30,952 bases of DNA. Source: a virus. Shown here one piece after another: positions 1-30,952 of the stretch (positions within the stretch are counted from its first letter, which is position 1; every line of letters starts with the position of its first letter). The notes below the pieces were generated by a model. The model worked only from the letters and a program-made list of their open reading frames with translations. It had not been told where the DNA came from and did no database searches. Made by a program: the position numbers and the translations under genes. Where the stretch lies: positions 1 through 30,952 of the IMG/VR virus record IMGVR_UViG_3300034684_000212; one strand, given 5' to 3'.

Positions 1-106
1 TACGTTAAATACAATGGAATTTTCGAAGATTACTTTTTTAATAATACATGGTAGATGTGTTATAGTATCTGTAGGACATAATTGCCTCGGCTTATAGACT
101 CACTTA
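1..106. other. host chromosomal flank, displaced 3' end of rlmH
   Basis: This is host DNA that lay downstream of rlmH before integration. Read on the minus strand from the core, positions 117-100 give GAG CCG TAT CAT AAG TGA, encoding Glu-Pro-Tyr-His-Lys-stop, the original end of rlmH. No other gene is visible in these 106 bases. Confidence 0.85.
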
Positions 107-1699
107 TGATACGGCTCCCCCTTCCCTCTCTAACCCTAAAACTTTTCCTGTGTAATCTATTGATAAAGTAGCCCCATAATTAAAGTCTATCTCTACTATT
201 TTCTTTTCTCTTACCCTTATTGCTTTTATTAACATTCTAACCAAATCTTGCTTTCTTTCCTTGCTATCTATTGTTTGAATTACTTTATTTGCATTACTTA
301 ATATTGTTAACATTTCTTCTGAATCCAATGTTTCTTCTTCAATTAATGCAAATTGTCTTTTTGTTTTACTTATTAATTCTTCTGCTTCTTCAATCTCATC
401 ACTTATAGCATCTAATCTATCTCTTATTAGTTGTTTTTGTCTTTCTTTTGTTAGGTATACTAACTCATCCAATAACCTTTTTTCTTCCTTCTCTAATTTA
501 TAAATATTTTTATCAATTCTATCTATTCTTAGCTGTAATTCCTGTACCCTTAAATCTTTATCTACACTTATTGCTGTTAACTGTTTTCTAAAATCTTCAC
601 TTGTTGTTATCATTTCAAATATATCAAAAAATTCTTTCTCTATTACTTCTTGATTTATACCTACTGCACTACATTGTTTCTTATTCTGGTATTGATTGCA
701 AATATAATAGTGGTAGACTTTACCTTTGCTTTCAGTTCTTTGTATAGACATACCCTGACCACAATGAGGACACCTTAGTAAACCACTTAGAAGGTGATAC
801 CCTTGAAATCTCTTTACATGATGTCTTGGATTATCCTTTATCCTATCTTGAACTAAATTATATCTTTCTTCTGATATTATGGGTTTGTGTATACCTTTAA
901 CAAATATTGCATCTTTGTTATACTTTCTTTTTCTCTCTTTTACACCTGTCTTAGGGTTTTTATGTTTTTTACCCCAATCCTTTCTATAACCCCATCTTAC
1001 CCAACCCTTGTAAGTTGGATTTGTTAATATAAACTTTACACCATACCCACTATATTTATTACCTCTGCTTGTCTTATAACCTTCCTCATTAAGTTCTCTT
1101 GCTATTGTTAAGTACCCTTTACCGGATAAATAACTATTATAAATCCTCTTTACTATCTCTGCTTGTTCATCATTAATTACTAAAGATTTCTCTACTAAAT
1201 CATACCCTAATGGAGGCTTCCCACCATTCCATTCACCTTCTCTTGCCTTTTGTTCCATTCCACCAGTTACTTGCATTATCATTGTGTCTCTTTCAAATTC
1301 AGCAAATATACCAGAAAAGTGGACTAAGAATTTATCTTGTGGTCTACTTGTATTTATACCATCTTTAATTGTAACTAATATCTTACCACTTTGCTCAAGT
1401 AGTTCAACAATCTCTAAAACATCAATTACTCTTCTACTTAACCTACTTAACTTCCAACACATTATATACTTTATACCTTCATCACTATACAACAGATGGT
1501 TTAATGCACTTTTTAACCCTATTCTTTCCTCTATCTCACTACCCGATATTCCTTCATCTGCATATATTTCTACTACTTCTATATTGTGCTTTTCACACTC
1601 GTCTCGCATTTCTTTCTCTTGGTTGGCTAAACTATAACCCTCTAATGCTTGTTCATTTGTACTTACACGTTTATATAGTATTGCTTTCTCTTTAACCAT
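104..1699 (-). CDS. int: large serine integrase (site-specific recombinase)
   Basis: This 531-residue recombinase would integrate and excise the prophage. The resolvase-type catalytic domain covers about residues 5-150, with the nucleophile Ser13 in KRVSTNEQ and the arginines of LSRLSRR at 84-90. The recombinase domain follows at about 165-290. A zinc ribbon has Cys310, Cys313, Cys334 and Cys343, and a long coiled coil spans about 380-455, as in phiC31- and TP901-type integrases. The ATG at 1697-1699 is preceded by GGAGGTG (1710-1716). The last codons lie in attL, so excision would change the sequence after the gene. A 51-codon gene lies upstream in the same direction, and a hairpin covers the ribosome binding site. 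Assignment is very secure. Confidence 0.97.
   Translation of the reverse strand: MVKEKAILYKRVSTNEQALEGYSLANQEKEMRDECEKHNIEVVEIYADEGISGSEIEERIGLKSALNHLLYSDEGIKYIMCWKLSRLSRRVIDVLEIVELLEQSGKILVTIKDGINTSRPQDKFLVHFSGIFAEFERDTMIMQVTGGMEQKAREGEWNGGKPPLGYDLVEKSLVINDEQAEIVKRIYNSYLSGKGYLTIARELNEEGYKTSRGNKYSGYGVKFILTNPTYKGWVRWGYRKDWGKKHKNPKTGVKERKRKYNKDAIFVKGIHKPIISEERYNLVQDRIKDNPRHHVKRFQGYHLLSGLLRCPHCGQGMSIQRTESKGKVYHYYICNQYQNKKQCSAVGINQEVIEKEFFDIFEMITTSEDFRKQLTAISVDKDLRVQELQLRIDRIDKNIYKLEKEEKRLLDELVYLTKERQKQLIRDRLDAISDEIEEAEELISKTKRQFALIEEETLDSEEMLTILSNANKVIQTIDSKERKQDLVRMLIKAIRVREKKIVEIDFNYGATLSIDYTGKVLGLEREGGAVS
107..117. other. attL: attL core (TGATACGGCTC)
   Basis: The 11 bases are identical to 30491-30501. 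They form the last four integrase codons (Gly-Ala-Val-Ser) just before its TAA stop, so the integrase gene itself ends at the recombination site. Confidence 0.9.
131..142. repeat. right arm of reconstructed attP
   Basis: TAACCCTAAAAC is the exact reverse complement of the 12 bases at 30475-30486. When the phage ends are rejoined the two arms stand 28 bp apart. Their centre falls between core positions 116 and 117, the usual geometry for a serine-integrase attP. Confidence 0.75.
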
Positions 1700-2200: not shown

Positions 2201-2791
2201 GTGAAAGTAAGTTATATAAGAGTTAGCAGTATTGAACAGAATGAAAGTAGACAAGTAGAAGCATTAGATAGGTTTGGTATAGATAAGGCATTTGTAGAGA
2301 AAGTAAGTGCAAAAGATACCCAAAGACCAAAACTTCAAGAGATGCTTGAGTATGTAAGAGAATGGGACACTGTTTATGTTATGGATTTTAGTAGGTTGGC
2401 AAGAAGTACAAAAGACCTTTTAGATATAGTGGAACTGTTAGAAAAGAAAAGTGTTACCCTTATTAGTCTTAAAGAGAATTTAGACACATCAACAGCAACA
2501 GGTAAACTACTACTAACAATGATAGGTGCAATTAATGAATTTGAAAGGTGTAACCTATTAGAAAGACAAAAAGAAGGTATTGAAATTGCCAAAAGGCAAG
2601 GGAAGTACAAAGGTGGACAGGTTAAGAAGATTAAAGATATTGAAAAACACTATAAAAGATATATGAGCAGAGAAATTAGTAAGTCAAAGTTAGCAAAAGA
2701 ATTAAAAATAAGTAGACCTACCCTTGATAGATTATTAAAAGAATTTGAAGAAAAACAGAAAAACTCTGAAAGTGTTGATATAACTCAATAA
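2201..2791 (+). CDS. small serine recombinase (resolvase/invertase family)
   Basis: This 196-residue protein has the catalytic domain of Hin/Tn3-type recombinases. Ser9 lies in YIRVSS, the arginines Arg65 and Arg68 lie in DFSRLARS, and the long E helix is at about 100-130. A helix-turn-helix at about 157-182 (KLAKELKISRPTLDRLL) would bind DNA. The start is GTG 2201, preceded by AAGGTGGTGG; the alternative downstream starts would cut the catalytic domain. It is one of two phage genes on the plus strand and has its own promoter and terminator. No invertible segment or paired 26-bp sites were seen nearby, so its target is unknown. It could resolve multimers, invert DNA, or move the adjacent restriction-modification genes. 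Confidence 0.93.
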   Translation: MKVSYIRVSSIEQNESRQVEALDRFGIDKAFVEKVSAKDTQRPKLQEMLEYVREWDTVYVMDFSRLARSTKDLLDIVELLEKKSVTLISLKENLDTSTATGKLLLTMIGAINEFERCNLLERQKEGIEIAKRQGKYKGGQVKKIKDIEKHYKRYMSREISKSKLAKELKISRPTLDRLLKEFEEKQKNSESVDITQ

Positions 2792-3012: not shown

Positions 3013-3771
3013 CTAAATATCAAATAACTCTGTTGGGTCTATCTTGAACTGCAGCATATTTGCTGTTTCCCTTCCATTATCCCCACCTTTTCTCTGAACC
3101 CCTATTCTACCTATATTAATACTTCCTCTTGGACTCATACATACTTCACCTTGAGAATAATGTTGCATTACCTCATTTATGTTCTTTAATACCCAACGAG
3201 CATTACTATGTACTTTCTGTGCTACTAATACCCATTCTGCACTAAACTCCCCACGTCCTCTTAATATATCAGATACTATAAGCATCTTATTTTCATTTAC
3301 CCAACTTATTACTATTTCTCTTTCTTCTTCTGTAAACTCATTAAGGAACATTCTTCTATTATCTCTTGTCCCTGCTCTATACGGTGGTCTTTCACCTGTA
3401 AAGTATTGTAAGAGTTCATATACATTTGTAGGTATAGTCCACATATCATCATAATTTCTTAACCATCTTTTGTCTACTTGATTAAAACCTTTTTTATTAC
3501 TTACTAACTTTACTTGTACATTCTCAATATCTAATGCATGTTTTAGTTTTATTTGAACTTGCACATTTACATCTGCTTTATACCCGTGTATTACTACTGC
3601 TTTTACATACTCAATCTCTTCTAAATTATACTGCATTATTCTTAACCACTTTTGAGCATCTTCATCATCTACCCATTTGTTAAACTTGTCTGCAATATCT
3701 TCTTCATTTCTAAACCCATTTCTTGCTGTTTGTGAACCCCTTAATACTAAATGCTCATTACTCACCATCAT
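3013..3771 (-). CDS. HinP1I-like type II restriction endonuclease (predicted GCGC)
   Basis: The 252-residue protein closely resembles what I recall of R.HinP1I, which cuts G^CGC and has 247 residues. Shared stretches include GFNQVDKRWL, SPRGSINIGR and the C-terminus ending DPTELFDI. HinP1I uses an SD-X18-QXK active site (Asp62, Gln81, Lys83). Here Asp67, Gln86 and Lys88 keep the same spacing, with Ala in place of the motif Ser. The start overlaps the methyltransferase stop by 4 bases (ATGA), so translation is probably coupled and the modifying enzyme is made first. A ribosome binding site, AAGGGGGA, lies very close to the first ATG; the second Met is equally possible. The specificity is inferred from the family, not shown. 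Confidence 0.88.
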   Translation of the reverse strand: MMVSNEHLVLRGSQTARNGFRNEEDIADKFNKWVDDEDAQKWLRIMQYNLEEIEYVKAVVIHGYKADVNVQVQIKLKHALDIENVQVKLVSNKKGFNQVDKRWLRNYDDMWTIPTNVYELLQYFTGERPPYRAGTRDNRRMFLNEFTEEEREIVISWVNENKMLIVSDILRGRGEFSAEWVLVAQKVHSNARWVLKNINEVMQHYSQGEVCMSPRGSINIGRIGVQRKGGDNGRETANMLQFKIDPTELFDI

Positions 3772-4727
3772 TCCCCCTTAATATATTCTAATAATTTATT
3801 ACCTAATGCTCTTATTACACTTACTGTCATTGCATTACCTGCTTGTGATAATAACTTACCCTCTACTATTTCCCCTTTTGACTTATCTGCTAACTCTCTG
3901 GGAAAACCCTGAAGTAGTAAGGCTTCATAACCTGATAATTTCTTAAGTTGTCCATCTTTTACATATAAGATACCATGTCTACCCGTTCTTAATGTTGGTA
4001 CTTTACCCCTATATAACCTTAAATCTGACTGTCTTGTATCTAATACTAAATAATCCTCTGCTAATATCTCATTTATATCAAACTTACCCACATTATACTT
4101 ATTGTTCAAATACTTTTGAAATGTAGCATCTTCAATAGGTAATATCTTATTCTCTGTATCTATTAAATAATCTTGTATGTTTGGTATAGGTTGTTCTTCT
4201 GGAAATTCAAACCTTTTACCCTCTTTTACTAAATCTTTTCTTATACCAACAAAATAAACCCTTTCTCTCATTTGTGGTACACCATAATTCTGACTATCTA
4301 ACACCTTATGCTCTACTTGGTAACCTGCTTCTTCTAACTCTGTTAGTATTATGTTTAATGTCTCACCACTATTATGATTTGTTAAACCTTTTACATTCTC
4401 TAATATAAAATACTTTGTTCCCCTTGCTATCAATATCTCTATTAATCCATATATTATTTGACCTCTTAAATCTTCTAAACCCTTTCTTTGCCCTACAATA
4501 CTATAACTTTGACAAGGAAAACCCCCAACCATAATATCAAAATCTGGTAAGTCCTCTGTCTTTATATCCATTAAATCCCCATAGTTCTTTTCTTCTATAC
4601 CATAAAATAATTTATATGTTTTAACAGGGTTTTCATCTATTTCTGAATATGCTACACATTCCAAACCTAATGATTCTAACCCTAATCTTCCTCCACCTAT
4701 ACCTGCACAAAAATCCATAAATTTCAT
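3768..4727 (-). CDS. C5-cytosine DNA methyltransferase, partner of the HinP1I-like enzyme
   Basis: The 319-residue enzyme has the ordered m5C methyltransferase motifs: SAM-binding FCAGIGGGRLGL (6-17), the catalytic Pro-Cys-Gln with Cys72 in GGFPCQS, ENVKG at 110-114, QMRER (152-156), and QAGNAMTVSV near the C-terminus. The region between motifs VIII and IX is the target-recognition part. It presumably methylates GCGC to protect the prophage and host from the adjacent nuclease. The ATG is preceded by AAGGAGAC. It is the first gene of a two-gene operon and no controller (C) protein is visible. Phage-borne restriction-modification would exclude competing phages and discourage loss of the prophage. 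Methyltransferase identity is certain; specificity is inferred from the partner. Confidence 0.95.
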   Translation of the reverse strand: MKFMDFCAGIGGGRLGLESLGLECVAYSEIDENPVKTYKLFYGIEEKNYGDLMDIKTEDLPDFDIMVGGFPCQSYSIVGQRKGLEDLRGQIIYGLIEILIARGTKYFILENVKGLTNHNSGETLNIILTELEEAGYQVEHKVLDSQNYGVPQMRERVYFVGIRKDLVKEGKRFEFPEEQPIPNIQDYLIDTENKILPIEDATFQKYLNNKYNVGKFDINEILAEDYLVLDTRQSDLRLYRGKVPTLRTGRHGILYVKDGQLKKLSGYEALLLQGFPRELADKSKGEIVEGKLLSQAGNAMTVSVIRALGNKLLEYIKGE

Positions 4728-6773: not shown

Positions 6774-8213
6774 CTACTCACCATACTTATAACTATACTC
6801 AACCTTAGCCTTTTCTGTTGCTGCTATTGTTTGTGCAGTTGTTAACTTCTTATAACTAAGCATATTACCCACATATTTACAGTATTTTACACCGTGTGTA
6901 CCAAATGCTAAATATGATACTGCTCCCCCATCTTCTTTTATCCCTTGGTATATGTCATCCAATGCTTTTGTGTCAAAATTGTATACCTCATTATTTATTA
7001 AATAATTTGCAGTTGTTTTAAGTAAAGGTAACGGTCTTAATAAACTATTAGGTGCTAAATCTGATAATAATATTGCTTTTGATGTTGTTTTTAATATATT
7101 GTATATAGGTACTGCTATAAATTGATTCCCATAATTTCCTATACTTACACCCTTTAAACTCTCTGGGTAGTATGTGCTTATATCTGATGGTATGCCTAAA
7201 TCTGCATATTGTATATCTGCTGCTGATACCCTTGCATAGGTTGTTGGGTTATAAGCATATAAAGTTGTATAAGTACCTGCTGTATACAAATAACCACCTT
7301 TTGTTAACAATATGCTTGGTATAGCATAACTTGTATTATAAAAATTAATTCCTGTATCTGTATGTGTCTCTGCTACCATATCATAAACCCATATGTCACC
7401 TAATTCATCTTTTCTATAAAACAATCTATCACCTATTATTACTTGTGGTCTGTCTGCTTTCATTAAAGGAAAGTCATAACCTGGGTCACCTGGTGCTAAT
7501 TCTGTCCTTGTTCCTAATACTAAATCAAGTTTTACCCTTCCTACTGTTCCACTTGTTGCATCACCTATAAGTATCTCATTTGCACCTGTTATACCTGTTA
7601 CACCATTTCTTAACATATAACCACTTGGTACTGCTTCACCATTTAATACATCATTTCTCTCTAAACCCTTAAAGATATTCAAACCATTGTATCTATCACT
7701 TCCTGTATTTAGTACATTTGGACCTATTGCTATAAAGTTAAATGTTCCTGTTGCTTTTCCTTCATCCCATTGCCAAGCTATACTGCTTACCCAATCATCA
7801 ACTATGTTTGCAGCAATTCTACCCGTTAATATACCTTGCTTTGCTTGAACTGATACTCTATCTATACTTGCCCATCCTACTATCTTACTATGGTCTATTT
7901 CCATTGTACCTGGTGTGTATATAGGTAATGTTGTTGTATCTGGTGTTATTGCATCTAATTCTGCTTGTGTTAAGTTCAGCAAATATATTGCAATGTTTTT
8001 ATCTTTATTTGCAATATCTACAATTGCTGTATCATTTTTAGGTAATAACCAAGATTGTATAAAATCAAAACCCTCTTCTATTGCTCTGTTTATTGTAAAA
8101 CCCTGTGTTGCTTTCGCTTTGAAGTACATATCACCTAACTTTGTTATCTCATTATAGTACCTCTCTTTTTTACCACTACTTGTACTAAAATCTATAATAC
8201 CTTTTATTTTCAT
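6774..8213 (-). CDS. putative tail fibre / receptor-binding protein
   Basis: The 479-residue protein is the last tail gene before lysis. It has no membrane segment and is rich in Gly, Thr, Asn and Tyr, with alternating short beta-strand-like stretches, for example GDRLFYRKDELGDIWVY and GGYLYTAGTYTTLYAYNP. These resemble propeller blades. The N-terminal 60 residues look helical and may attach to the baseplate. The ATG has AGGGGGTAATAGAAG upstream, and 20 bases separate it from the preceding fibre gene. The role is inferred from position and composition; the fold is a guess. It should be co-transcribed with the cohesin-containing protein from the promoter at 9.78 kb. Confidence 0.6.
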   Translation of the reverse strand: MKIKGIIDFSTSSGKKERYYNEITKLGDMYFKAKATQGFTINRAIEEGFDFIQSWLLPKNDTAIVDIANKDKNIAIYLLNLTQAELDAITPDTTTLPIYTPGTMEIDHSKIVGWASIDRVSVQAKQGILTGRIAANIVDDWVSSIAWQWDEGKATGTFNFIAIGPNVLNTGSDRYNGLNIFKGLERNDVLNGEAVPSGYMLRNGVTGITGANEILIGDATSGTVGRVKLDLVLGTRTELAPGDPGYDFPLMKADRPQVIIGDRLFYRKDELGDIWVYDMVAETHTDTGINFYNTSYAIPSILLTKGGYLYTAGTYTTLYAYNPTTYARVSAADIQYADLGIPSDISTYYPESLKGVSIGNYGNQFIAVPIYNILKTTSKAILLSDLAPNSLLRPLPLLKTTANYLINNEVYNFDTKALDDIYQGIKEDGGAVSYLAFGTHGVKYCKYVGNMLSYKKLTTAQTIAATEKAKVEYSYKYGE

Positions 8214-8233: not shown

Positions 8234-9694
8234 TTACTCTATTATTATAAAGACATCATCTGTTATTTTCATACCATCTACACCATTATCACTCTTTGCA
8301 GTATGTTTGCTTATTTCCTCTTTATCTACTATTTGCACCATAGTATCTGTTATAACTAAATCAACTGGCTTTTTACCACTTGGGTCCCATACCTCTAATA
8401 TAAAGGCATCTGTTATTTTCATACTTTCTGTTTTACTGTCAAATGTTACTACATAACTACTTGTCTCTTCTGTATCTATTATTTTCAGTATTCTATCTGT
8501 TATAACTAAATCTACTGGACCACTTGAAGAACCCTCTATTATAGTTATTATTGCACTATCTGTTATCTTAAATCTTTCTATATATCTAAATATTGGTCTC
8601 TCTATTGGTACATCCTGTACTTCATCCCTTGGTATTTTATTTTCAAGTATAAACAACCCGTTTGCCTTTATAAATACATAGAATAAACCATTATCTTCTT
8701 CTTTTTCTGGTTCTACTATGATTTCATAACTTATTTTGCCTGTTGTTAATCCTGGTACTGTTAAAGGTATATCACCTGTTACTGGATTTTCACCTGGTTG
8801 TAGTGGTATAGTTGTTGTTCCAGCAAAAACCCCACCTATATATACATTTATTGTTGCATATATACCACCTGATAGAGTTATACCATTTGGTATCATTAAC
8901 CCTATGTTGAGGTCATAACCTAAACCACTTCCTGTGCTTGGTAGTGATGCTTCTGGTCCTGGTGTTGTTTCTCTTAGCTCTGGCTCTGGTGTTGTTTGTG
9001 TTGCATCTAACAATATTGAACCACTTTGTAGTTTAATAGGTGTTATATAGTATAAATCACCCAAAATCCTTGTTAATAACTCACTACCACTTCCTGTTCC
9101 TACTACACCCTCTAACCTTAAAGGTATCTTAGATGTTCCTGTTGGTACTGTTTCCTTTACATAAAACCTTGCTGTAAATAATGCTATATCTTCCCTTTTT
9201 GCTTCTGTCCTCTCACCTTGTGCTAATATTACACCTGCTGTTGAGGTGTTATATACAAAATTACCATCCCAACTTGTTGCTTGAGTTAAACTATCTAAGG
9301 TCAAATAATCACTATTGTAAGTCAATTTAACTTGAAACCCTGCTACACCTCTATTATCTGCTGCATTTTTTACAATAAAAACAGGTATATCTATGTATTG
9401 ACCTCTTACCCCTTGTCTTTCTTGAACACCTAATGTTAGAATGTCTGCACTACTTATACCTTTGTTCCTTGTATATAACAACTTTATAATGTCTAAACTT
9501 TGGACTATCTTCTTTCTTCCATTCATTAACCCTATAAAGAAAGAGGTCTGCTCTTTTTCATTTGTGGGTAGTGTGATTACACCTTGTTCCCCTATGTTGG
9601 TTATTCTATCTGATAGCTCACTTATTCTTTTTCTACTATTTACACCTATACTATATCCTAACCAATACCATTCCCAATTCATCTCTGTTATCAA
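8234..9694 (-). CDS. tail/baseplate protein with a cohesin-like domain and C-terminal ITD repeats
   Basis: The 486 residues divide into an N-terminal part (1-80), a cohesin-like beta-sandwich (about 83-230), a Pro/Thr/Glu linker (about 232-257), a beta-rich domain (258-370) and a repeat tail (about 373-486). The cohesin features are the GQYIDIPVFIVKNA...GVAGFQVKLTYNSDYLTL pattern, the WDGNFVYN strand and PTGTSKIPLRLEGV, in the order seen in cellulosomal scaffoldins. The tail has two 50-residue units plus a third start, each carrying (K/V)ITD-x-(I/V) strands. A TTG start with GGGGGTG six bases upstream is likely; an ATG four codons later lacks good spacing. It probably recognises the host surface. 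The linker contains LPSTG, a sortase-like string without the following membrane anchor. Confidence 0.75.
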   Translation of the reverse strand: MITEMNWEWYWLGYSIGVNSRKRISELSDRITNIGEQGVITLPTNEKEQTSFFIGLMNGRKKIVQSLDIIKLLYTRNKGISSADILTLGVQERQGVRGQYIDIPVFIVKNAADNRGVAGFQVKLTYNSDYLTLDSLTQATSWDGNFVYNTSTAGVILAQGERTEAKREDIALFTARFYVKETVPTGTSKIPLRLEGVVGTGSGSELLTRILGDLYYITPIKLQSGSILLDATQTTPEPELRETTPGPEASLPSTGSGLGYDLNIGLMIPNGITLSGGIYATINVYIGGVFAGTTTIPLQPGENPVTGDIPLTVPGLTTGKISYEIIVEPEKEEDNGLFYVFIKANGLFILENKIPRDEVQDVPIERPIFRYIERFKITDSAIITIIEGSSSGPVDLVITDRILKIIDTEETSSYVVTFDSKTESMKITDAFILEVWDPSGKKPVDLVITDTMVQIVDKEEISKHTAKSDNGVDGMKITDDVFIIIE

Positions 9695-9839: not shown

Positions 9840-11030
9840 TTATATTGTACCTGCTTCATAACTAACAGTAGTAATGTATAGAGAGTTTTGAATATATCCT
9901 GTAATTTCCCCATTCTCTACAACATACTCAAACTTTTGCTCTTCTTCACCTGCAAACTTTACCTTTACCCCATTATCCTTAAACTTAATGTATTCACAGT
10001 GTTGGTCAGCCCAACCTACTATATGCACCCCATCTTTATCCATTACTATACCTACTACATCCCCGTCATCATCTGTGTGGTATATATGATAAAAACCACT
10101 CTCATCCTTATATGTAAAACCTTGACCTCTTGTTTCTATACCTACACCTGCACCATATATAATAGTTGGTACACCTACTGCATTTGCTGTATTTGCAAAC
10201 TCTATACTCAACTTCTTTGTTAAACTTGAAGGTTTATAAACCATCAATTTAAAGGCATTTCTGTCACTATCTGATATGTCTGGGTACTTATCCCTTGGGT
10301 CTACTGTGGTTATATATCTGTAAGCATCAGGTCCATCTATTATTGCATACCAATAATATGTTGTTGTTTGTTGTCCAGCTGTTGTTGTTGTTATGCTGAA
10401 CTGTTCCTCTTCACTACCCAAAGTAGCCATATAGAAGGATAAAGTCCAATCCTCTGCTTTTATATACTCTACAATCTGACCAGGTTGAGAATTTCTTGTA
10501 GTCATTGACATTACTGCTGTCTGTAAAAGTTGAGTAAATAGACTATCTGTAAAGGCACTTGTTGCTTGTACTACATCTGCTGCTATGGTCTGCTCTTTTA
10601 GTACTGTTGCTATTTGTAGAGGGGTTATGTCCTTTGATGGTAAAATTACTATACTGTTTATTGTTAGGTTTTCCGTGCTTTTATTAAAGAGTTTTAAGGT
10701 TACAGTATATAGGTCATTACCCTTTAACTCTAATATACAAGTATTCTTAAAAATACCTGTTTCAACCTCTACATCCCTGTTGAAGTTTATAAAATAATTC
10801 TCTTTTTTCAATTCTATATTTTTATATACTACCTCTAAATTAGCAAAACCTTTGCTTTTGAAGTTGTAAGCAGTCGCAGAAGATTGTAAAAAATCCACCT
10901 CTACTAATAATGCTTTTGCATCTGACTTTATACCTGTTATTGGTATTACTTGCTCTTGTTGAGGTGTAAGAGTTATGCTATCTGTTGTTTTATATATTGG
11001 TTGCTCTTTATTCCATTGTCTTTCTGCCAT
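9840..11030 (-). CDS. putative baseplate / tail tip protein
   Basis: This 396-residue protein lies between the tail hub and the cohesin-containing fibre. It has no membrane segment. The sequence is mostly beta-type, with Thr-rich stretches (QFSITTTTAGQQTTTYYWY) in the middle and a C-terminal part with Asp/Gly turns (HTDDDGDVVGIVMDKDG) that could bind metal. The N-terminal 130 residues resemble a small beta-sandwich. The ATG is preceded by GGGGTGTAATAA, and the gap to the hub gene is 3 bases. No named family was recognised. Position supports an upper baseplate or fibre role. Confidence 0.55.
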   Translation of the reverse strand: MAERQWNKEQPIYKTTDSITLTPQQEQVIPITGIKSDAKALLVEVDFLQSSATAYNFKSKGFANLEVVYKNIELKKENYFINFNRDVEVETGIFKNTCILELKGNDLYTVTLKLFNKSTENLTINSIVILPSKDITPLQIATVLKEQTIAADVVQATSAFTDSLFTQLLQTAVMSMTTRNSQPGQIVEYIKAEDWTLSFYMATLGSEEEQFSITTTTAGQQTTTYYWYAIIDGPDAYRYITTVDPRDKYPDISDSDRNAFKLMVYKPSSLTKKLSIEFANTANAVGVPTIIYGAGVGIETRGQGFTYKDESGFYHIYHTDDDGDVVGIVMDKDGVHIVGWADQHCEYIKFKDNGVKVKFAGEEEQKFEYVVENGEITGYIQNSLYITTVSYEAGTI

Positions 11031-18363: not shown

Positions 18364-19200
18364 CTATACAAACTTCTTAACTAATACTGCTTCTGCCTTT
18401 GTTACTTTGTGTGCATATACTTTTCTTCCTTGTACTGCACTTGCACCTATGTATTTCCCAGAACCTGAAAGGTCTACTACTTTTACTGGTACTGACCATG
18501 CTTGTACTCTTGTTGCAAAGTCTTTGTGTCCTGCTATAAACTCTGTATCTGCTGCTAAGTTGTTAGATACAAAAACATTGAAACCTGCTATCTTACCAAC
18601 TACACCTTCTTCTACTAATTTCTGAGAAAGGTCTCCTTGCTTTATAAAGTTGTCCTTATCTTTTAGTAATACTGCATGTAAATCTGCTGATACAAGTAAA
18701 AATCTGTCAGATACTGGTACGTTTGATTTTGTTAATGATGCTGCTGTATCTACCAAGTAGTCATATGCTGTTGCTACTGTTAATGCAGTAGTATCTGGTG
18801 CATCTAATTCATCCACAATTGTTTTACCCTCTGCTTCTAATACTGCTATACCATCTGCATCAAGTGTATTAGCCATTGAGTAACCTGCACTATCAATTCT
18901 GTCTGCTACTATACCGTCTGGTACTGATGCAGCGTCAAAACCGTCTATTACCTCATTTATTGCTTTGTCTTTGTTGATTGTTACTGTTATGTAAGTTGTG
19001 CTTCCCTCTGTTGGTGCTATTCCTGTTGCTTTGTTGTAATCTCCTACAACTACCTCTGCTCTTGTTGGTATCTTTACTGCTCCTGCTGTTGCATCGCCCT
19101 CATACCTTGTGTTGAATATCATCTCGTCTTTTGTAACTAATTGCTTTCTTGCTCTGATATCCACTAATTTACTGTACTTCTCTTGTAATGTGTGTGCCAT
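18364..19200 (-). CDS. major capsid protein
   Basis: The 278-residue protein follows the scaffold gene. It starts MAHTLQEKYSKLVDIRARK and shows the alternating helix/strand pattern of HK97-fold coats: PTRAEVVVGDYNKATG in the strand-rich P region, ADRIDSAGYSMANTLD (spine helix), NVPVSDRFLLVSADLHAVL and a C-terminal KYIGASAVQGRKVYAHKVTKAEAV. The ATG has AAAGGATGATTAAAA upstream. It lies between scaffold and connectors. The family is clear from order and pattern, though no exact subfamily is claimed. Confidence 0.88.
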   Translation of the reverse strand: MAHTLQEKYSKLVDIRARKQLVTKDEMIFNTRYEGDATAGAVKIPTRAEVVVGDYNKATGIAPTEGSTTYITVTINKDKAINEVIDGFDAASVPDGIVADRIDSAGYSMANTLDADGIAVLEAEGKTIVDELDAPDTTALTVATAYDYLVDTAASLTKSNVPVSDRFLLVSADLHAVLLKDKDNFIKQGDLSQKLVEEGVVGKIAGFNVFVSNNLAADTEFIAGHKDFATRVQAWSVPVKVVDLSGSGKYIGASAVQGRKVYAHKVTKAEAVLVKKFV

Positions 19201-21086: not shown

Positions 21087-22361
21087 CTAATACTCTATAA
21101 AATCACTTAATGCATACCTTGTTGCATCTATGGTGTGGTTGTTTTTGTCATCTAATACATACTCTTGTGCCTTTCTTTTATACACATAACTATATTCTGT
21201 GAACTCTTTATATGTATGTGGTGTTCTATTTTTATCTATGTATATATTATTCAAACCCCTCAACCATATAATTCCATTATCTACACTACCCTTTTTACAA
21301 CCTCTTGCCTTACTTACACCTTCAATTATTAACTGCTTTATACCACCACTATCTTGATTGTCACAATAGACTGTGAAATTGTTTCTGTTTTCTTTTAGTA
21401 TATTTACTGCTATCTCTGGGTAATCTGTGTCTTTCTTGTACCACTCATCTACTATGTAAAGGTCCTTATTCTTCTCATCATAATGTGCTACTACATAGGC
21501 TGTCGGGTCCCCTTGCTTTGCTGTTCCAAAATCTAAACCCCTCTGTAAAGTCTTAAATCTACTCTTATCTACTGTATAATCTTCAATATTTTTAAAAACT
21601 AAACCCTCTTTACCTGATACCAAACCTAAAAATCTAAAATTATATAAGGCTTCATCTAATTGCTTTATTCTCTCTGCTTCTCTTATAAATGCTTTACCCA
21701 ACCATTTCTTCGGTACATCTAAATATGTTACATGTAAACAAAACATATCATCTGTAGTTTCTCTGAACTTCTCATACTGAAAAGTATTTAATTTATCAAC
21801 AGGATTCCAAGCATATAGTATAGGACAACTGTTTTCTTCTAAATATTCATATTCTATTTCTTCATCTTCTTCACCACCTCTGGTGAATGTAAGGTTATTA
21901 TCCTCAACATCATCAAGGTCTTCAAACTCTTGAAACTCCTCATATATTACTAATTTGCAAGGCACTCCATTCTCAAAGGTTGTTCCCTTTACCCCTTGAT
22001 AATCATATAAACCATCAAAAAGTGCTATGTGTTTTGTCTTTTTATTTACTATCATTAAAGGACTTTTATAGAACTCATATTTATCCTTTATACCTATTCT
22101 TGCTGCTACCTTGCCTATTTCTGCATATAATGACTTTCGCATATTTGCTTTAAACTTCCTAAATACCATTACATTACCACCACCAAAGGTAACACTTAAA
22201 CTTAAAAATATAAGTATTAACAATGCAAGTAATGTACTTTTAACACCTGCTCTACCACCCCAAATAGAATATTTTGGGTACTTATTGTTCAGTATGTTAT
22301 ATATCAACTCATTGTATTTGGATGGTATAAAATCATTTAGATTAATCATCTTTTTCTTCAT
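21087..22361 (-). CDS. terL: terminase large subunit (packaging motor)
   Basis: The 424-residue motor has Walker A GGRAGVKST (35-43), Walker B LVIYEE (137-142) and the coupling motif LYAWNPVDK (182-190) in the ATPase half. The nuclease half has RGLDFGT with Asp277, YCDNQDSGG near 335 and HTIDATRYALSD near the end, giving the acidic cluster of the RNase H-like fold. It packs DNA into the prohead and cuts concatemers. The ATG at 22359-22361, after GGTGG, overlaps the small subunit gene by 20 bases. A second ATG four codons later is possible. Assignment is secure. Confidence 0.95.
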   Translation of the reverse strand: MKKKMINLNDFIPSKYNELIYNILNNKYPKYSIWGGRAGVKSTLLALLILIFLSLSVTFGGGNVMVFRKFKANMRKSLYAEIGKVAARIGIKDKYEFYKSPLMIVNKKTKHIALFDGLYDYQGVKGTTFENGVPCKLVIYEEFQEFEDLDDVEDNNLTFTRGGEEDEEIEYEYLEENSCPILYAWNPVDKLNTFQYEKFRETTDDMFCLHVTYLDVPKKWLGKAFIREAERIKQLDEALYNFRFLGLVSGKEGLVFKNIEDYTVDKSRFKTLQRGLDFGTAKQGDPTAYVVAHYDEKNKDLYIVDEWYKKDTDYPEIAVNILKENRNNFTVYCDNQDSGGIKQLIIEGVSKARGCKKGSVDNGIIWLRGLNNIYIDKNRTPHTYKEFTEYSYVYKRKAQEYVLDDKNNHTIDATRYALSDFIEY

Positions 22362-25062: not shown

Positions 25063-25086
25063 AGATAAGGGGTTAACCCCTTATCT
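25063..25086. repeat. perfect palindrome at the amidase stop codon
   Basis: AGATAAGGGG (25063-25072) is the exact complement of 25077-25086 around TTAA. The amidase stop lies in the right arm. There is no U-run, so it is more likely an mRNA element or a protein site than an intrinsic terminator. Confidence 0.65.
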
Positions 25087-25707
25087 TAACCCTTTTGCTA
25101 TCTTCTCTAACAATGCTTCACCATATGTGTAGGCTTGTAAATAATCCAAGGTTTCCTTTTGCAACCCTATCTTCTGACCTATAATAACCCTATACCTTGC
25201 TATCTCTTGCTCTTTACTTGCTGCACCTTTTACTTTTTCCTTGAACTCTACCCATAGTTGTGGGTTTCTTACCCAAGGCTCAGGGCATTGTTTCTTTGTT
25301 ATGTCATAGTGTCTTATAACCCTCTCTATTGGTATGTTATACTTTTTCATTAAGTACTGTACTAACTCTACTGTTGTTTTTACTGTTTCTTCATCTATGT
25401 ACCAGTTACCTTTTGAATCTTTTAAGCAGCACATTTCTATACCTATACTCTTTTGGTTGAACTCATAGTTCCCTGCGTGCCAAGCTGTATCACTATCTAA
25501 AACACTTTGATACACCTTTGCACCTCTTACTGCATGGTCTACAAAGTAGTGTGCTGATGCTCGTCTACCTTGTCCTTGGAAATACTTAAGGTTTGCTTCT
25601 GCACCACCTAAAGCACCTACATAGTGCAAAACTATGTATTCTATCTTGTTTCTTCTACCTCTTGTGTAGTTGGTGCTGTGTGCTTGTATAAACTTTTCAA
25701 TTTTCAT
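25081..25707 (-). CDS. N-acetylmuramoyl-L-alanine amidase (endolysin)
   Basis: From the ATG at 25705-25707 (AAAGGGGTAATGAA upstream) the enzyme has 208 residues. The frame extends 12 codons further up but overlaps the previous gene. The amidase_2 domain covers about 20-160: His28 in IVLHYVG, Glu91 in SIGIEM, His133 in IRHYDIT and Cys141 in KKQCPEP match the zinc ligands and neighbours of T7 lysozyme-type amidases. A short C-terminal helical part (EALLEKIAKGLR) may bind the wall. It would cut peptide cross-links from glycan for host lysis. Its place in the early-type operon, 19 kb from the holin-like genes, is unusual. Confidence 0.92.
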   Translation of the reverse strand: MKIEKFIQAHSTNYTRGRRNKIEYIVLHYVGALGGAEANLKYFQGQGRRASAHYFVDHAVRGAKVYQSVLDSDTAWHAGNYEFNQKSIGIEMCCLKDSKGNWYIDEETVKTTVELVQYLMKKYNIPIERVIRHYDITKKQCPEPWVRNPQLWVEFKEKVKGAASKEQEIARYRVIIGQKIGLQKETLDYLQAYTYGEALLEKIAKGLR

Positions 25708-25711
25708 TTCA

Positions 25712-26266
25712 TTACCCCTTTCTTTTATTTCCTTTCTCGTCATAAAAAACTATCTTACTATACTGTAATTGCTTTATATACATCTCTACAAAAAACCATT
25801 GTGGTATATAATAACCTGCTTCCATCCATACAGAAGGTAGAGATACTTCTAAGTCACCTAATCTGCTTGGTGTTGCTTTTCTCGCATAATTAAACCTATA
25901 ATTATTGCTATTTAATATAGTTTGTAGATAAACATATATGCTTTTTTGTTCCCAATTTACCCATCTATCTTTTAACTTTAAAATAATAACTGTTGTAGTA
26001 GCATTAAAGTCTTTATCCTGATATAAAGCACCACCTAATTCACTATAAGTGAGTGCAGGTGCTTTATATTTAGGTGCTATATTGTTATATCCTACAACAC
26101 CTTGATTTTGTAATGTAGCTGAAACAAGAGGAACTGTACCTGCTTCATCTACTTCTATTACTTTATAAGTTCCTCTTTCTATATCACATAAAAAATCTAT
26201 ACTGAACAGTTGAAATCCCCTGTGTTCTGTTTTTATAGGCTTTTTTGGTATCCCTAAATCTAACAT
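25712..26266 (-). CDS. half-length type I specificity (HsdS-like) subunit
   Basis: The ATG at 26264-26266, eight bases after AAGGAAG and one base past the methylase stop, gives 184 residues. The sequence has the pattern of a single HsdS target-recognition domain: DIERGTYKVIE, TVPLVSATLQNQGVVGY, GALYQDKDFNATTTVIILK, YLQTILNSNNYRFNYARKAT and LEVSLPS. Full HsdS proteins have two such domains and two long spacer helices (about 400 residues). Here only one domain is present, with a short helical tail. Two copies could join one or two methylase subunits to read a symmetrical bipartite site. No restriction (HsdR) gene is nearby. Confidence 0.75.
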   Translation of the reverse strand: MLDLGIPKKPIKTEHRGFQLFSIDFLCDIERGTYKVIEVDEAGTVPLVSATLQNQGVVGYNNIAPKYKAPALTYSELGGALYQDKDFNATTTVIILKLKDRWVNWEQKSIYVYLQTILNSNNYRFNYARKATPSRLGDLEVSLPSVWMEAGYYIPQWFFVEMYIKQLQYSKIVFYDEKGNKRKG

Positions 26267-26267
26267 A

Positions 26268-27623
26268 TTACACACTTCCTTGTTCTTGCATAAGTTTAAA
26301 AATTGCATATTTCTTTAATTCTCTCTCAAAGTCTGCCCTTGTTATCTTACTGTAATCAGTTTTTACATATGCTTCCCATACCCACTCTGTATCAGCTTCT
26401 TTATCTATTTTATGTGCTATTGCTTGTTGTGGTTTTTCTCTTTTTTCTATTACATCACCTATCCATTCAGTTTTTATTTCATCCCATAACCCTTTATAAT
26501 CTTGTCTACCACCATCTTTACCTTTTCTATACTCAAAACCATCCTCTTTCCAATCTGCAAAATATACAGATTTGTCTGTATCATGTGGTATATGTGCTTT
26601 TACTGTCATAATAACTGTACCAACTGATGCATCAGGATAAAATAATTCAGTATTCATTCCAAAAACCCCTAATAGTGTATGTTTATCTAATAGTTCTGTT
26701 TTTAATTTATCTTTCTTTATTACTACTGAATAAGGTACTATTGCTACTAATATCCCACCTTTTTTTATATAACTTAAACTATCTAAAATAAAATCCATCT
26801 CTGTTTCACCTGGCTTTTTTAACCCGTAAGGCGGATTTATAAAACATATATCTGCTTTATCTTGTATCTTATCTAATACTTCTTTATCATCTTTAATATC
26901 CTTATGTAATGATGATGAATAAATCATATTTTTGAGTTTAATGCCTTTATATGCTGCATTTGCTAACAATAAAGGGAACATCTCATTCCATGCTTCAACA
27001 CATATATAATTATCTTTTATATCCTCTGCCTTATGACAAGAACCTAATAACCACTTATGATAACCATTCATAAAGGCGCCACTACCCGAACAAGTATCTA
27101 ATAATACACGTTTTGAGGGTATATTACCTGTTTCTTCTTCACTTTTTTCTTCATATAGGTAATTATTTGCTAATTCACAAAACAGTTCTCGTATGTGTTC
27201 AGGTGTTAGGACAACACCTAATCCTTTCTTATCATCTACTGTGAAAAATCTACTCATTATATCTTCTGATATGTACTTACTCTTACCCCTTTCATACAAA
27301 CTCTCTTTTGTTACTTCTAATAACACCTCTAAATAGGTTTTATCTATACTTAACTTATATTTTTTAGCAAAATCTTGATGTATCTTACTATTTAACTTGC
27401 TATGTGTTTTTATCTTTTCTAATATTTGAACTATAAAAGGCATTATATTCTCATCTGCTTTATTTTCTTCTAAATAAAGCTTTATCACCTCTTTTAAATC
27501 ACCTTGTTTGTTTGCACTTATATAAAGAATTAACATTGACATTATATGTGCCTTAAAGCCACCTGAAATACTTATATAAAGCATTGTATAATCTATAAAA
27601 CTTATAAAATCTACTAAATTCAT
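26268..27623 (-). CDS. N6-adenine DNA methyltransferase (HsdM-like)
   Basis: The ATG at 27621-27623, after AAAGGGGTAATGAA, gives 451 residues. A start 12 codons earlier overlaps the previous gene and is unlikely. Residues 1-130 are helical, then come GVVLTPEHIRELF, motif I LDTCSGSGAF (about 175-184) for SAM, and motif IV NPPYG (about 263-267) for adenine. This is the order of HsdM and type IIG enzymes. It is followed at once by the half-specificity subunit, so the pair probably forms a sequence-specific methylase without a nuclease. It could protect phage DNA against host restriction or alter host gene expression. Confidence 0.88.
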   Translation of the reverse strand: MNLVDFISFIDYTMLYISISGGFKAHIMSMLILYISANKQGDLKEVIKLYLEENKADENIMPFIVQILEKIKTHSKLNSKIHQDFAKKYKLSIDKTYLEVLLEVTKESLYERGKSKYISEDIMSRFFTVDDKKGLGVVLTPEHIRELFCELANNYLYEEKSEEETGNIPSKRVLLDTCSGSGAFMNGYHKWLLGSCHKAEDIKDNYICVEAWNEMFPLLLANAAYKGIKLKNMIYSSSLHKDIKDDKEVLDKIQDKADICFINPPYGLKKPGETEMDFILDSLSYIKKGGILVAIVPYSVVIKKDKLKTELLDKHTLLGVFGMNTELFYPDASVGTVIMTVKAHIPHDTDKSVYFADWKEDGFEYRKGKDGGRQDYKGLWDEIKTEWIGDVIEKREKPQQAIAHKIDKEADTEWVWEAYVKTDYSKITRADFERELKKYAIFKLMQEQGSV

Positions 27624-27627
27624 TTCA

Positions 27628-28098
27628 TTACCCCTTTCTCTTTCTCTTATCTTCTTCATAATACTTGGTTACTATATCTATTAACTCTCTCTTACTGCTC
27701 TTGTTTGGGTCTATGTTGTACTCTACTACTGTTCTCTGTAAAAACTCTACTGTGTGCTTTATGGCTGTCTTTTCTGTGTAACCTTGCTTTATCTTATCCT
27801 TAACTATCTGTACTGCTGTTGTAGGTATTCCTGGCAGTTCTATTAACTCTATTAGTTGTAGTCTTTTATAATCTTCATATATCTCAGATATTGCAGTATA
27901 AAGATAATGCTTATTAATGTCCTCTAATTCTAAAACCATTTCACTTACCATAACTCTTACCATTACATTTGTTGTATAATCTACTGCACTTTCCTCATTA
28001 AACCCATCTGCTTTCTTCCACTTCATTAAATCTACTACTAAATCTTCCCACCCTTTTACCCTTATTACTTCTTTTAGTTGTTTCTTGCTCATTTTCAT
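27628..28098 (-). CDS. unknown 156-residue helical protein
   Basis: The ATG at 28096-28098 with GGGTG six bases upstream is preferred over a GTG three codons earlier. The product starts MKMSKKQLKEVIRVKGWEDL and is helical throughout, with a basic Lys/Arg-rich end (DKRKRKG). No domain was recognised. The stop is 4 bases before the methylase start, with a gene border (21 bases) identical to that before the endolysin. The neighbourhood (HNH, methylase) suggests a DNA-related or accessory role, without direct proof. Confidence 0.6.
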   Translation of the reverse strand: MKMSKKQLKEVIRVKGWEDLVVDLMKWKKADGFNEESAVDYTTNVMVRVMVSEMVLELEDINKHYLYTAISEIYEDYKRLQLIELIELPGIPTTAVQIVKDKIKQGYTEKTAIKHTVEFLQRTVVEYNIDPNKSSKRELIDIVTKYYEEDKRKRKG

Positions 28099-30474: not shown

Positions 30475-30501
30475 GTTTTAGGGTTATTTGTGATACGGCT
30501 C
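30475..30501. other. attR: attR core and left arm of reconstructed attP
   Basis: The core TGATACGGCTC (30491-30501) equals 107-117. The arm GTTTTAGGGTTA (30475-30486) is the exact inverse of 131-142. The phage bases here also code for the new end of rlmH. Confidence 0.88.
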
Positions 30502-30952
30502 ACCCTTCATTATCCTGAAGCTCCTGTATATCTGCTCCAGCAATATAACCTTAAACAGCTGATGGGGAAAGGTCATTTTTGAAAATGACAGTTTCATATC
30601 AGCTTTTTTTAGCACCTTGTCAGAAAGACCTAGTGATCCTCCTATGGCAAAGGTTATATGACTGGTGCCGTATATACCCAGCTCTTCTATTTTTTTTGAA
30701 AGCTCCTCGCTGGAAAGCTGCTTGCCCTTAATATCGAGGACAATAAAATAAGAGGAAGGATCCAGCTTTTGAAGGATTCTTTCTCCTTCCTTATTCTTAA
30801 TTAGTAGCTCTTCTTTTTGGCTTAGATTATCAGGTGCTTTTTCATCGGGTAGTTCTATCTGATCCAGGCTACAATAGGAGGAAAGGCGTTTTGTGTATTC
30901 TTCTATTGCTTTTTTGAAAAAATCCTCTTTTATTTTGCCGATGGATATAAGT
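30484..30952 (-). CDS. rlmH: 23S rRNA (pseudouridine1915-N3)-methyltransferase, 5' end outside the window
   Basis: The 155 visible codons cover nearly all of the usual 159-residue RlmH. The missing start lies just beyond the window edge. Features are GKIKEDFF near the N-terminus, ELPDEKAPDNLS, the SAM-binding knot FAIGGSLGLSDKV, and the C-terminus FRIMKGEPYHK, all typical of this SPOUT-fold enzyme that methylates pseudouridine 1915 of 23S rRNA in helix 69. The last codons (CAC AAA TAA) come from phage DNA. The displaced host version (CAT AAG TGA) encodes the same residues, so the protein is unchanged. The gene is host chromosomal and its codon use differs from the phage. Confidence 0.97.
   Translation of the reverse strand, partial: LISIGKIKEDFFKKAIEEYTKRLSSYCSLDQIELPDEKAPDNLSQKEELLIKNKEGERILQKLDPSSYFIVLDIKGKQLSSEELSKKIEELGIYGTSHITFAIGGSLGLSDKVLKKADMKLSFSKMTFPHQLFKVILLEQIYRSFRIMKGEPYHK

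Follow-up and report, generated by a model that had tools for sequence, protein, structure and literature searches.

What would a cohesin be doing in the tail of a phage? Cohesins serve for docking in cellulosomes and in further proteins of bacteria and archaea, and the locus described here, in which a cohesin is encoded among phage tail genes, shows a known family of domains in a setting that is new for it. The DNA analysed is a stretch of 30,952 nucleotides (IMG/VR record IMGVR_UViG_3300034684_000212, positions 1 to 30,952), hereafter the window. We lean towards the view that a single genuine cohesin, situated in a distal tail protein, acts as a tail adhesin; the presence of the protein in the virion, its adhesive role and its partner are what we infer.

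The window reads as a siphophage-type prophage with mostly minus-strand genes. The genes that frame the cohesin gene are as follows.

6774-8213, minus strand: 479-aa protein that follows the cohesin gene downstream; its counterpart at this place in a second phage, L002, is 27% identical
8234-9694, minus strand: 486-aa cohesin-bearing protein in distal tail position (open reading frame, Pfam Cohesin, syntenic homologue in L002)
9840-11030, minus strand: 396-aa protein upstream of the cohesin gene, 40% identical in L002
11034-12338, minus strand: 434-aa protein in the tail-associated (Tal) position, its role assigned by position, 39% identical in L002
12718-15540, minus strand: tail tape measure protein, 940 aa (phrog_1535, 4.7e-98)
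18364-19200: major head protein (PHROGs)
21087-22361: terminase (PHROGs)
25081-25743: phage-encoded amidase, apart from the tail genes (Pfam/PHROGs)

PHROGs families also match a head-tail adaptor, a neck protein and a major tail protein in the window. Past the tape measure come the 130-, 434- and 396-aa proteins, then the cohesin protein and the 479-aa one, with small genes following as far as 6105. When the 396-aa protein and its L002 counterpart are combined in a profile (profile A2), this profile weakly matches, with 27.9 bits, a 737-aa protein of the Pfam family "Prophage endopeptidase tail", at about residues 549-627; that protein is located behind a Dit protein. Elsewhere in the window lie a second, small resolvase (2201-2791, plus strand), a C-5 cytosine DNA methylase (3768-4727, minus strand) and an N6 DNA methylase (26268-27659, minus strand; Pfam).

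The cohesin gene sits at the distal end of the tail cluster, both here and in L002, which is the place of receptor-binding and tail-tip genes. The corresponding proteins of siphophages of Gram-positive hosts are likewise encoded after the tape measure and Tal-like genes and likewise have a variable C-terminus; they usually carry lectin-like or Ig-like domains, whereas the window has a cohesin there. No recognised receptor-binding family is found in the cohesin protein (Pfam, PHROGs, NCBIfam), and no family at all in PHROGs (E<=0.1) or NCBIfam (E<=1). The earlier note on this DNA had called it a tail protein. The distal-tail position and the tail-gene neighbours bear this out, and position and neighbours are the whole basis of the assignment; it is from gene position only that we infer that the protein belongs to the virion.

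The open reading frame of 486 residues begins with a TTG start codon and can be divided as follows.

9458-9694, minus strand: N-terminal region, residues 1-79, for which a low-confidence model shows some helix
8999-9457, minus strand: cohesin domain, residues 80-232 (PF00963 29.1 bits, model, PDB matches)
8924-9004, minus strand: Pro/Thr-rich linker, residues 231-257, with 11 Pro or Thr among 27 residues
8639-8923, minus strand: second region, residues 258-352, conserved in L002 and modelled, at low confidence, mostly as strand
8237-8584, minus strand: C-terminal region, about 2.5 repeats of 50 residues (150-bp period) with KITD/VITD half-repeats

The protein probably begins with a part for attachment to the baseplate, followed by the cohesin, a linker and a second region rich in beta structure, and ends in a variable C-terminus that bears repeats. 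Residues 1-79, whose sole Pfam match is YrzO, below cut-off (E 0.077), may serve anchoring. The KITD/VITD motifs of the C-terminal repeats start at residues 376, 397, 426, 447 and 476. A Pro/Thr linker behind the cohesin had been claimed in the earlier note, and the stretch is real; a second stretch of 27 residues, from residue 292, holds even more Pro and Thr (12), and neither the linker nor the C-terminal 50-residue repeats have a like in L002.

That the domain is a cohesin follows from profile searches. The Pfam Cohesin family, PF00963, matches the whole protein with 26.4 bits (E 8.8e-6) against a curated cut-off of 24.1 bits, and is the only Pfam family listed for it at E<=1. The match covers residues 93-202 (window 9089-9418), inside the cohesin-like region that had been placed at residues about 83-230, window 8999-9448 on the minus strand being residues 83-232. 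Taken alone, the domain scores 29.1 bits; no further family is listed for it at E<=10, a range in which the HMMER filters discard most matches above about 0.1. The L002 cohesin scores 28.9 bits in the whole protein, 32.5 alone and 31.7 in a DNA search. The cut-off is thus exceeded in both phages, with no competing family over its own cut-off, and the HMM check that had been proposed for this region comes out in favour of a cohesin. As to how freely the family matches, one of 14 control genomes contains a match (E<=0.001), that of Methanosarcina acetivorans. Pfam finds one cohesin stretch per protein, in the window and in L002; the protein is in this respect not a scaffoldin, with several cohesins in one chain.

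One alternative is that the cohesin call is spurious and the domain a generic beta-sandwich of tails. It draws on the scores, only 2-8 bits over the cut-off, and on searches of PDB chains by sequence (phmmer and profile searches), in which no cohesin was found. The latter result indicates that the link to cohesins lies past the reach of those searches. Two divergent sequences nevertheless pass the cut-off, and structure comparison puts cohesins first by a wide margin. On the strength of that comparison and of the second phage we rejected this alternative, to which we give next to no credence.

The structural evidence is as follows. An AlphaFold model of residues 80-232, built from two sequences (the window's and the homologous stretch of L002), has a pLDDT of 77.2 and a pTM of 0.75, with domain residues 128-143, the loop preceding the last strand, below 50; in a full-length two-sequence model, which is poor (pLDDT 42.4), the cohesin region is the best part. 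The domain model predicts nine strands and a short tenth, the beta-sandwich of cohesins being nine-stranded. Among the 50 Foldseek matches listed from the PDB, ranks 1-33 are cohesins or cohesin-containing scaffoldin pieces, counting as the latter 3kcp and 4fl4, which we take to be scaffoldin fragments that include a cohesin. Rank 1 is CaCohA2 of Clostridium acetobutylicum (E 5.2e-10, TM 0.75). In the VIA comparison the same protein superposes with Z 16.9, at 1.9 A over 134 residues with 19% identity, and all 50 entries listed are cohesins, by title or, for 3kcp, 4fl4 and 2o4e, presumably. By the earlier note, the call was to be abandoned if the predicted fold were another one or if a general tail Ig-like domain matched best; neither appeared, and the structure prediction that it had asked for returned a cohesin fold with cohesins at the head of the PDB lists.

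The first non-cohesin among the 50 Foldseek matches listed stands at rank 34, a CLIPPER adhesin domain (9ifr), and a general Ig-like tail domain was accordingly dropped as a candidate. CLIPPER, formerly DUF11, is a beta-sandwich with an intramolecular isopeptide bond (PMC12617251); the word "cohesin" is absent from the main text of that article. A viral protein of 243 aa in BFVD, A0A7T8ERM8, has a predicted cohesin-like fold as well (Foldseek E 4.1e-9); its TM score to the window domain is 0.76 by query length, with only 15% identity.

Among cohesin types, the model favours, without proving, type I as the closest in fold. VIA Z scores are 13.0-16.9 for entries that we class as type I, and 11.1-12.9 for types II and III and most Ruminococcus flavefaciens entries, with 5lxv from the latter species at 13.7; the ranges of the types meet, and Z differences below 1 are to be read as ties. 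CaCohA2 (PDB 6kgd, 6kgc) resembles the window domain in fold and has a similar domain length; unlike the latter, it was solved with a dockerin, CaDoc0917 (PDB title), and the window domain lies in a phage tail gene. The cohesins of Archaeoglobus fulgidus (2xdh) and of Clostridium perfringens hydrolases (2vo8, 2w1n), with Z 15.2, 14.9 and 13.3, are non-cellulosomal like the window's, yet they sit in cellular proteins.

The second phage, L002, lies on viral contig IMGVR_UViG_3300017832_000011 and was found by a tape-measure search of viral contigs. It is divergent: the tape measures, both phrog_1535, are 35% identical in full alignment, and GC content is 44.1% over its 19-kb locus against 32.4% in the window. 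Past the tape measure the gene order is the same, beginning with a phrog_1194 protein in both, with 27-40% identity per aligned protein; the L002 homologue of the 434-aa protein matches phrog_10359, minor tail protein (6.5e-8). The cohesin proteins are 31% identical (BLASTP E 7e-30, 354 aligned positions), the match stopping before the C-terminal part, and the cohesin domains are 38% identical, above the value for the whole protein. The retention of a cohesin in one slot across this divergence speaks against a recent chance fusion.

How rare is such a protein? Neither the window protein nor its L002 homologue found a relative in the 50,697 INPHARED records by tblastn; the window protein found none in plasmids or viral contigs, nor did the 434-aa protein in viral contigs. 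Eight scans of viral contigs yielded one contig with a cohesin relative, that of L002. The tape-measure search gave L002 and L003, the latter lacking a cohesin; profiles A1, A2 and A4, a DNA pattern and the L002 protein found only L002's own contig. Profile A1, a two-sequence cohesin-protein profile (window and L002) that could miss other cohesins, had no match in genome contigs and matched 0 of 225 genomes of the order of genome G302, the latter search being run without a positive control. Profile A2, run on 391 genomes of the class considered below, gave one weak match, on a 7.6-kb contig with Dit, a prophage endopeptidase tail protein and a tape-measure-like protein; none of the four open reading frames scanned there contained Cohesin. 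The frames of 33 bacterial tape-measure loci had no match to profiles A1-A4 at E<=1, and none of 25 bacterial cohesin places compared with these loci (of 30, three of G025 and two of G011 being left out) fell inside one. A motif at the N-terminus, thought common to gut-phage tail proteins, had 0 hits in 3707 open reading frames and was dropped. From the INPHARED, plasmid, viral-contig and genome searches it follows that a cohesin tail protein of the window's type is rare in the data searched.

The earlier note's remark that it knew of no phage cohesin described as a receptor-binding module agrees with the open-access papers listed in literature searches, none of which describes a phage tail cohesin in its title or abstract opening. 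In an account of ANME archaea, cohesins and phage-like translocation structures are treated in separate sections of the text consulted (PMC9012536). A bacterial cohesin matched phrog_22121, a family of unassigned function, at positions 574-695 of 765 (E 3.5e-6); no members of this family were found by tblastn in INPHARED. Two bacterial cohesins run against INPHARED by tblastn gave no match in one case and three weak ones, with E of 2 or more, in the other. Together, the phrog_22121 match and the BFVD protein suggest that further viral cohesins may exist.

For a cohesin on a free virion, adhesion by binding a protein of the host surface is the most likely function, and the leading single candidate for the partner is a dockerin-bearing surface protein of the host. 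Such a partner is attractive because the predicted fold is nearest to dockerin-binding cohesins and because related bacteria own such systems. Residues Asn37 and Asp39 of a cohesin that we take to be that of C. thermocellum, in a numbering that fits 1aoh, offer a point of reference. Both touch the Ser/Thr motif of the dockerin, and mutants altered at these and two more positions no longer bind the original dockerin (PMC5772552). An alignment with four PDB cohesins appears solid near strand 3 and is unreliable near strands 5-6; at the equivalent positions it has Gly/Gln in the window and Gly/Ile in L002, so that the C. thermocellum contacts are absent and the specificity of that species' dockerins is not to be expected. 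The cohesin 4uyp, solved with a dockerin, has Ala/Ser at these positions, and it is possible that the window domain binds a dockerin with another specificity than that of C. thermocellum. Conservation of the putative docking face (strands 8-3-6-5) and of the other face, counted by hand in two sequences, shows no clear difference.

These positions bear on the main rival, that of a passive beta-sandwich or of another ligand. Ig-like domains are thought to be passive spacers in other tail proteins, and the cohesin could be such a spacer or stalk of a tail fibre, with the second region or the C-terminus doing the binding and no dockerin involved. Dockerin-contact positions that are not kept, and that differ between the window and L002, would suit such a role, as would the occurrence of cohesin and immunoglobulin domains in animal adhesion molecules (title of PMC6030884). 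Against it, the cohesin is the sole recognised domain of the protein and is better conserved (38%) than the whole (31%), the BLASTP match to L002 ends ahead of the C-terminal part that would have to bind, and a passive spacer need not most resemble dockerin-binding type I cohesins. We regard it as a real but lesser possibility.

Bacterial cohesins add to the case for a spacer. PF00963 is common in bacteria: of the 33 genomes in which the tape-measure loci lie, 16 have a match at E<=1e-3 and 13 one that exceeds the cut-off, and by eye 7 of the 24 bacterial cohesin frames listed show a dockerin-like stretch, the others showing none in the part listed. Most of these proteins, again by eye, look secreted or surface-bound, which could also mean that the phage gene acts in lysogenic conversion, as a moron gene whose product belongs to the surface of the host cell and not to the virion. 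The cohesin gene, however, lies inside a same-strand run of tail genes and occupies one slot in both of the divergent phages, and its product, judged by eye, lacks the signal peptide and the anchor in membrane or wall that many bacterial cohesin proteins have; a moron gene is, in our judgement, very improbable.

The adhesin that we favour calls for a host, and the ends of the window point to one.

104-1699, minus strand: large serine recombinase, likely the phage integrase (Pfam Resolvase, Recombinase, Zn_ribbon_recom)
107-117, plus strand: 11-bp direct repeat, left copy of a possible att core, at the 3' end of the serine recombinase gene
30484-30951, minus strand: bacterial rlmH gene, truncated at the window end (155 residues), the probable integration site (SPOUT_MTase PF02590, 194.2 bits)
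30491-30501, plus strand: 11-bp direct repeat, right copy of the possible att core, at the 3' end of rlmH

The SPOUT_MTase gene is what we take to be rlmH, a site at which SCC elements also insert. By a rough estimate, about 0.04 such 11-bp repeats would be expected by chance in random sequence, and more in AT-rich DNA. The same prophage ends are also joined by an inverted match of 12 bp, between 131-142 and 30475-30486, and by direct matches of 10 bp, so the 11-bp repeat alone is weak evidence and marks a possible att core only. Taken together, rlmH, the serine recombinase and this possible core make an integrated prophage the best reading of the window.

The rlmH fragment has a match in 342 of 391 genomes of the class of a Herbinix genome, a class that we take to be Clostridia, the best identity being 65%. 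This best value is the same in the samples of the class (391 genomes), the order (225) and the phylum (398), in which no closer host was found; the best match in the order is G465, and in the phylum sample only G302 passed E 1e-62. A Clostridia bacterium is, on this sequence evidence, most likely the host, with the reservation that tape-measure relatives also occur in Paenibacillus (best segments up to 53%).

Dockerins and cohesins were sought in the 20 best rlmH-matching genomes, namely G465 and the first 19 of the 391-genome class search. Dockerin matches over the cut-off occur in five (14 in G465, 12 in G302, one each in G334, G151 and G277) and none in the other 15; cohesin matches also occur in five (G465 5, G302 5 with one under the cut-off, G151 2, G179 1, G277 1). 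The two genomes that rank first by rlmH score, G465 and G302, have both, yet G223, G317 and G353, with nearly equal rlmH identity, have no dockerin match. Dockerin_1 was found neither in the window nor in L002's record. When domains of G302 and G465 were cut out and scanned with hmmscan, 7 of 7 cohesins and 3 of 3 dockerins were confirmed; the 315-aa cohesin protein of locus L077 shows no Cohesin by whole-protein hmmscan at E<=0.01, and its cut-out domain scores 33.8 bits.

Small cohesin proteins of these two genomes, at loci L076, L077 and L078, resemble the window protein in having one cohesin (29.3-34.4 bits when cut out) and a linker-like stretch after it. They differ in having, by eye, a signal peptide and a C-terminal membrane segment, and those of L077 and L078 lie beside dockerin genes. 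At these two loci the small cohesin protein adjoins dockerin proteins with leucine-rich-looking repeats or a Glucosaminidase domain; the arrangement looks like a cohesin-dockerin surface system, one that is not cellulolytic-looking. Two further loci show dockerins near the N-terminus, L080 in four similar adjacent genes (418-437 aa) and L084 in adjacent genes of 434 aa and 106 aa.

The glucosaminidase proteins bear on another alternative, in which the virion cohesin would load host dockerin enzymes such as wall hydrolases and carry them to the next cell. G302 and G465 each encode a candidate in which a C-terminal dockerin accompanies a Glucosaminidase domain (58.7 and 62.4 bits; cut-off 30.2). 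These dockerins, which reach 25.2 and 28.9 bits in the genome search, fall just under the cut-off of 22.9 in the whole protein (21.2 and 22.6); rlmH identity to the host is only 65% for both genomes, and the phage has an amidase of its own at 25081-25743. We think enzyme loading hardly plausible.

The reading in the earlier note is supported in part: profile, structure model and second phage speak for the cohesin fold and the distal-tail place, and the virion may dock on host dockerins or carry host enzymes. Returning to the tail adhesin, a dockerin as its partner is for the present a doubtful assignment: 15 of the 20 rlmH genomes give no dockerin match, Asn37 and Asp39 are not kept, and many bacterial cohesin proteins show, by eye, no dockerin. 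The fuller proposal, in which the cohesin of the virion is a receptor-binding module that plugs into dockerin proteins displayed by a Clostridia host, is to be held just as tentatively.

That two divergent phages keep a cohesin in one slot among their tail genes suggests recruitment of a docking fold for virus-host contact. Should the partner be a dockerin, phage and host would form a defined protein-protein receptor pair, testable by standard cohesin-dockerin assays, and surface cohesin-dockerin complexes would cost bacteria exposure to phages. If the virion cohesin docks on host dockerins, the cohesin-dockerin lock of the cellulosome would double as a phage receptor. The tail cohesin could, in addition, help to find the hosts and receptors of uncultured phages of Clostridia.
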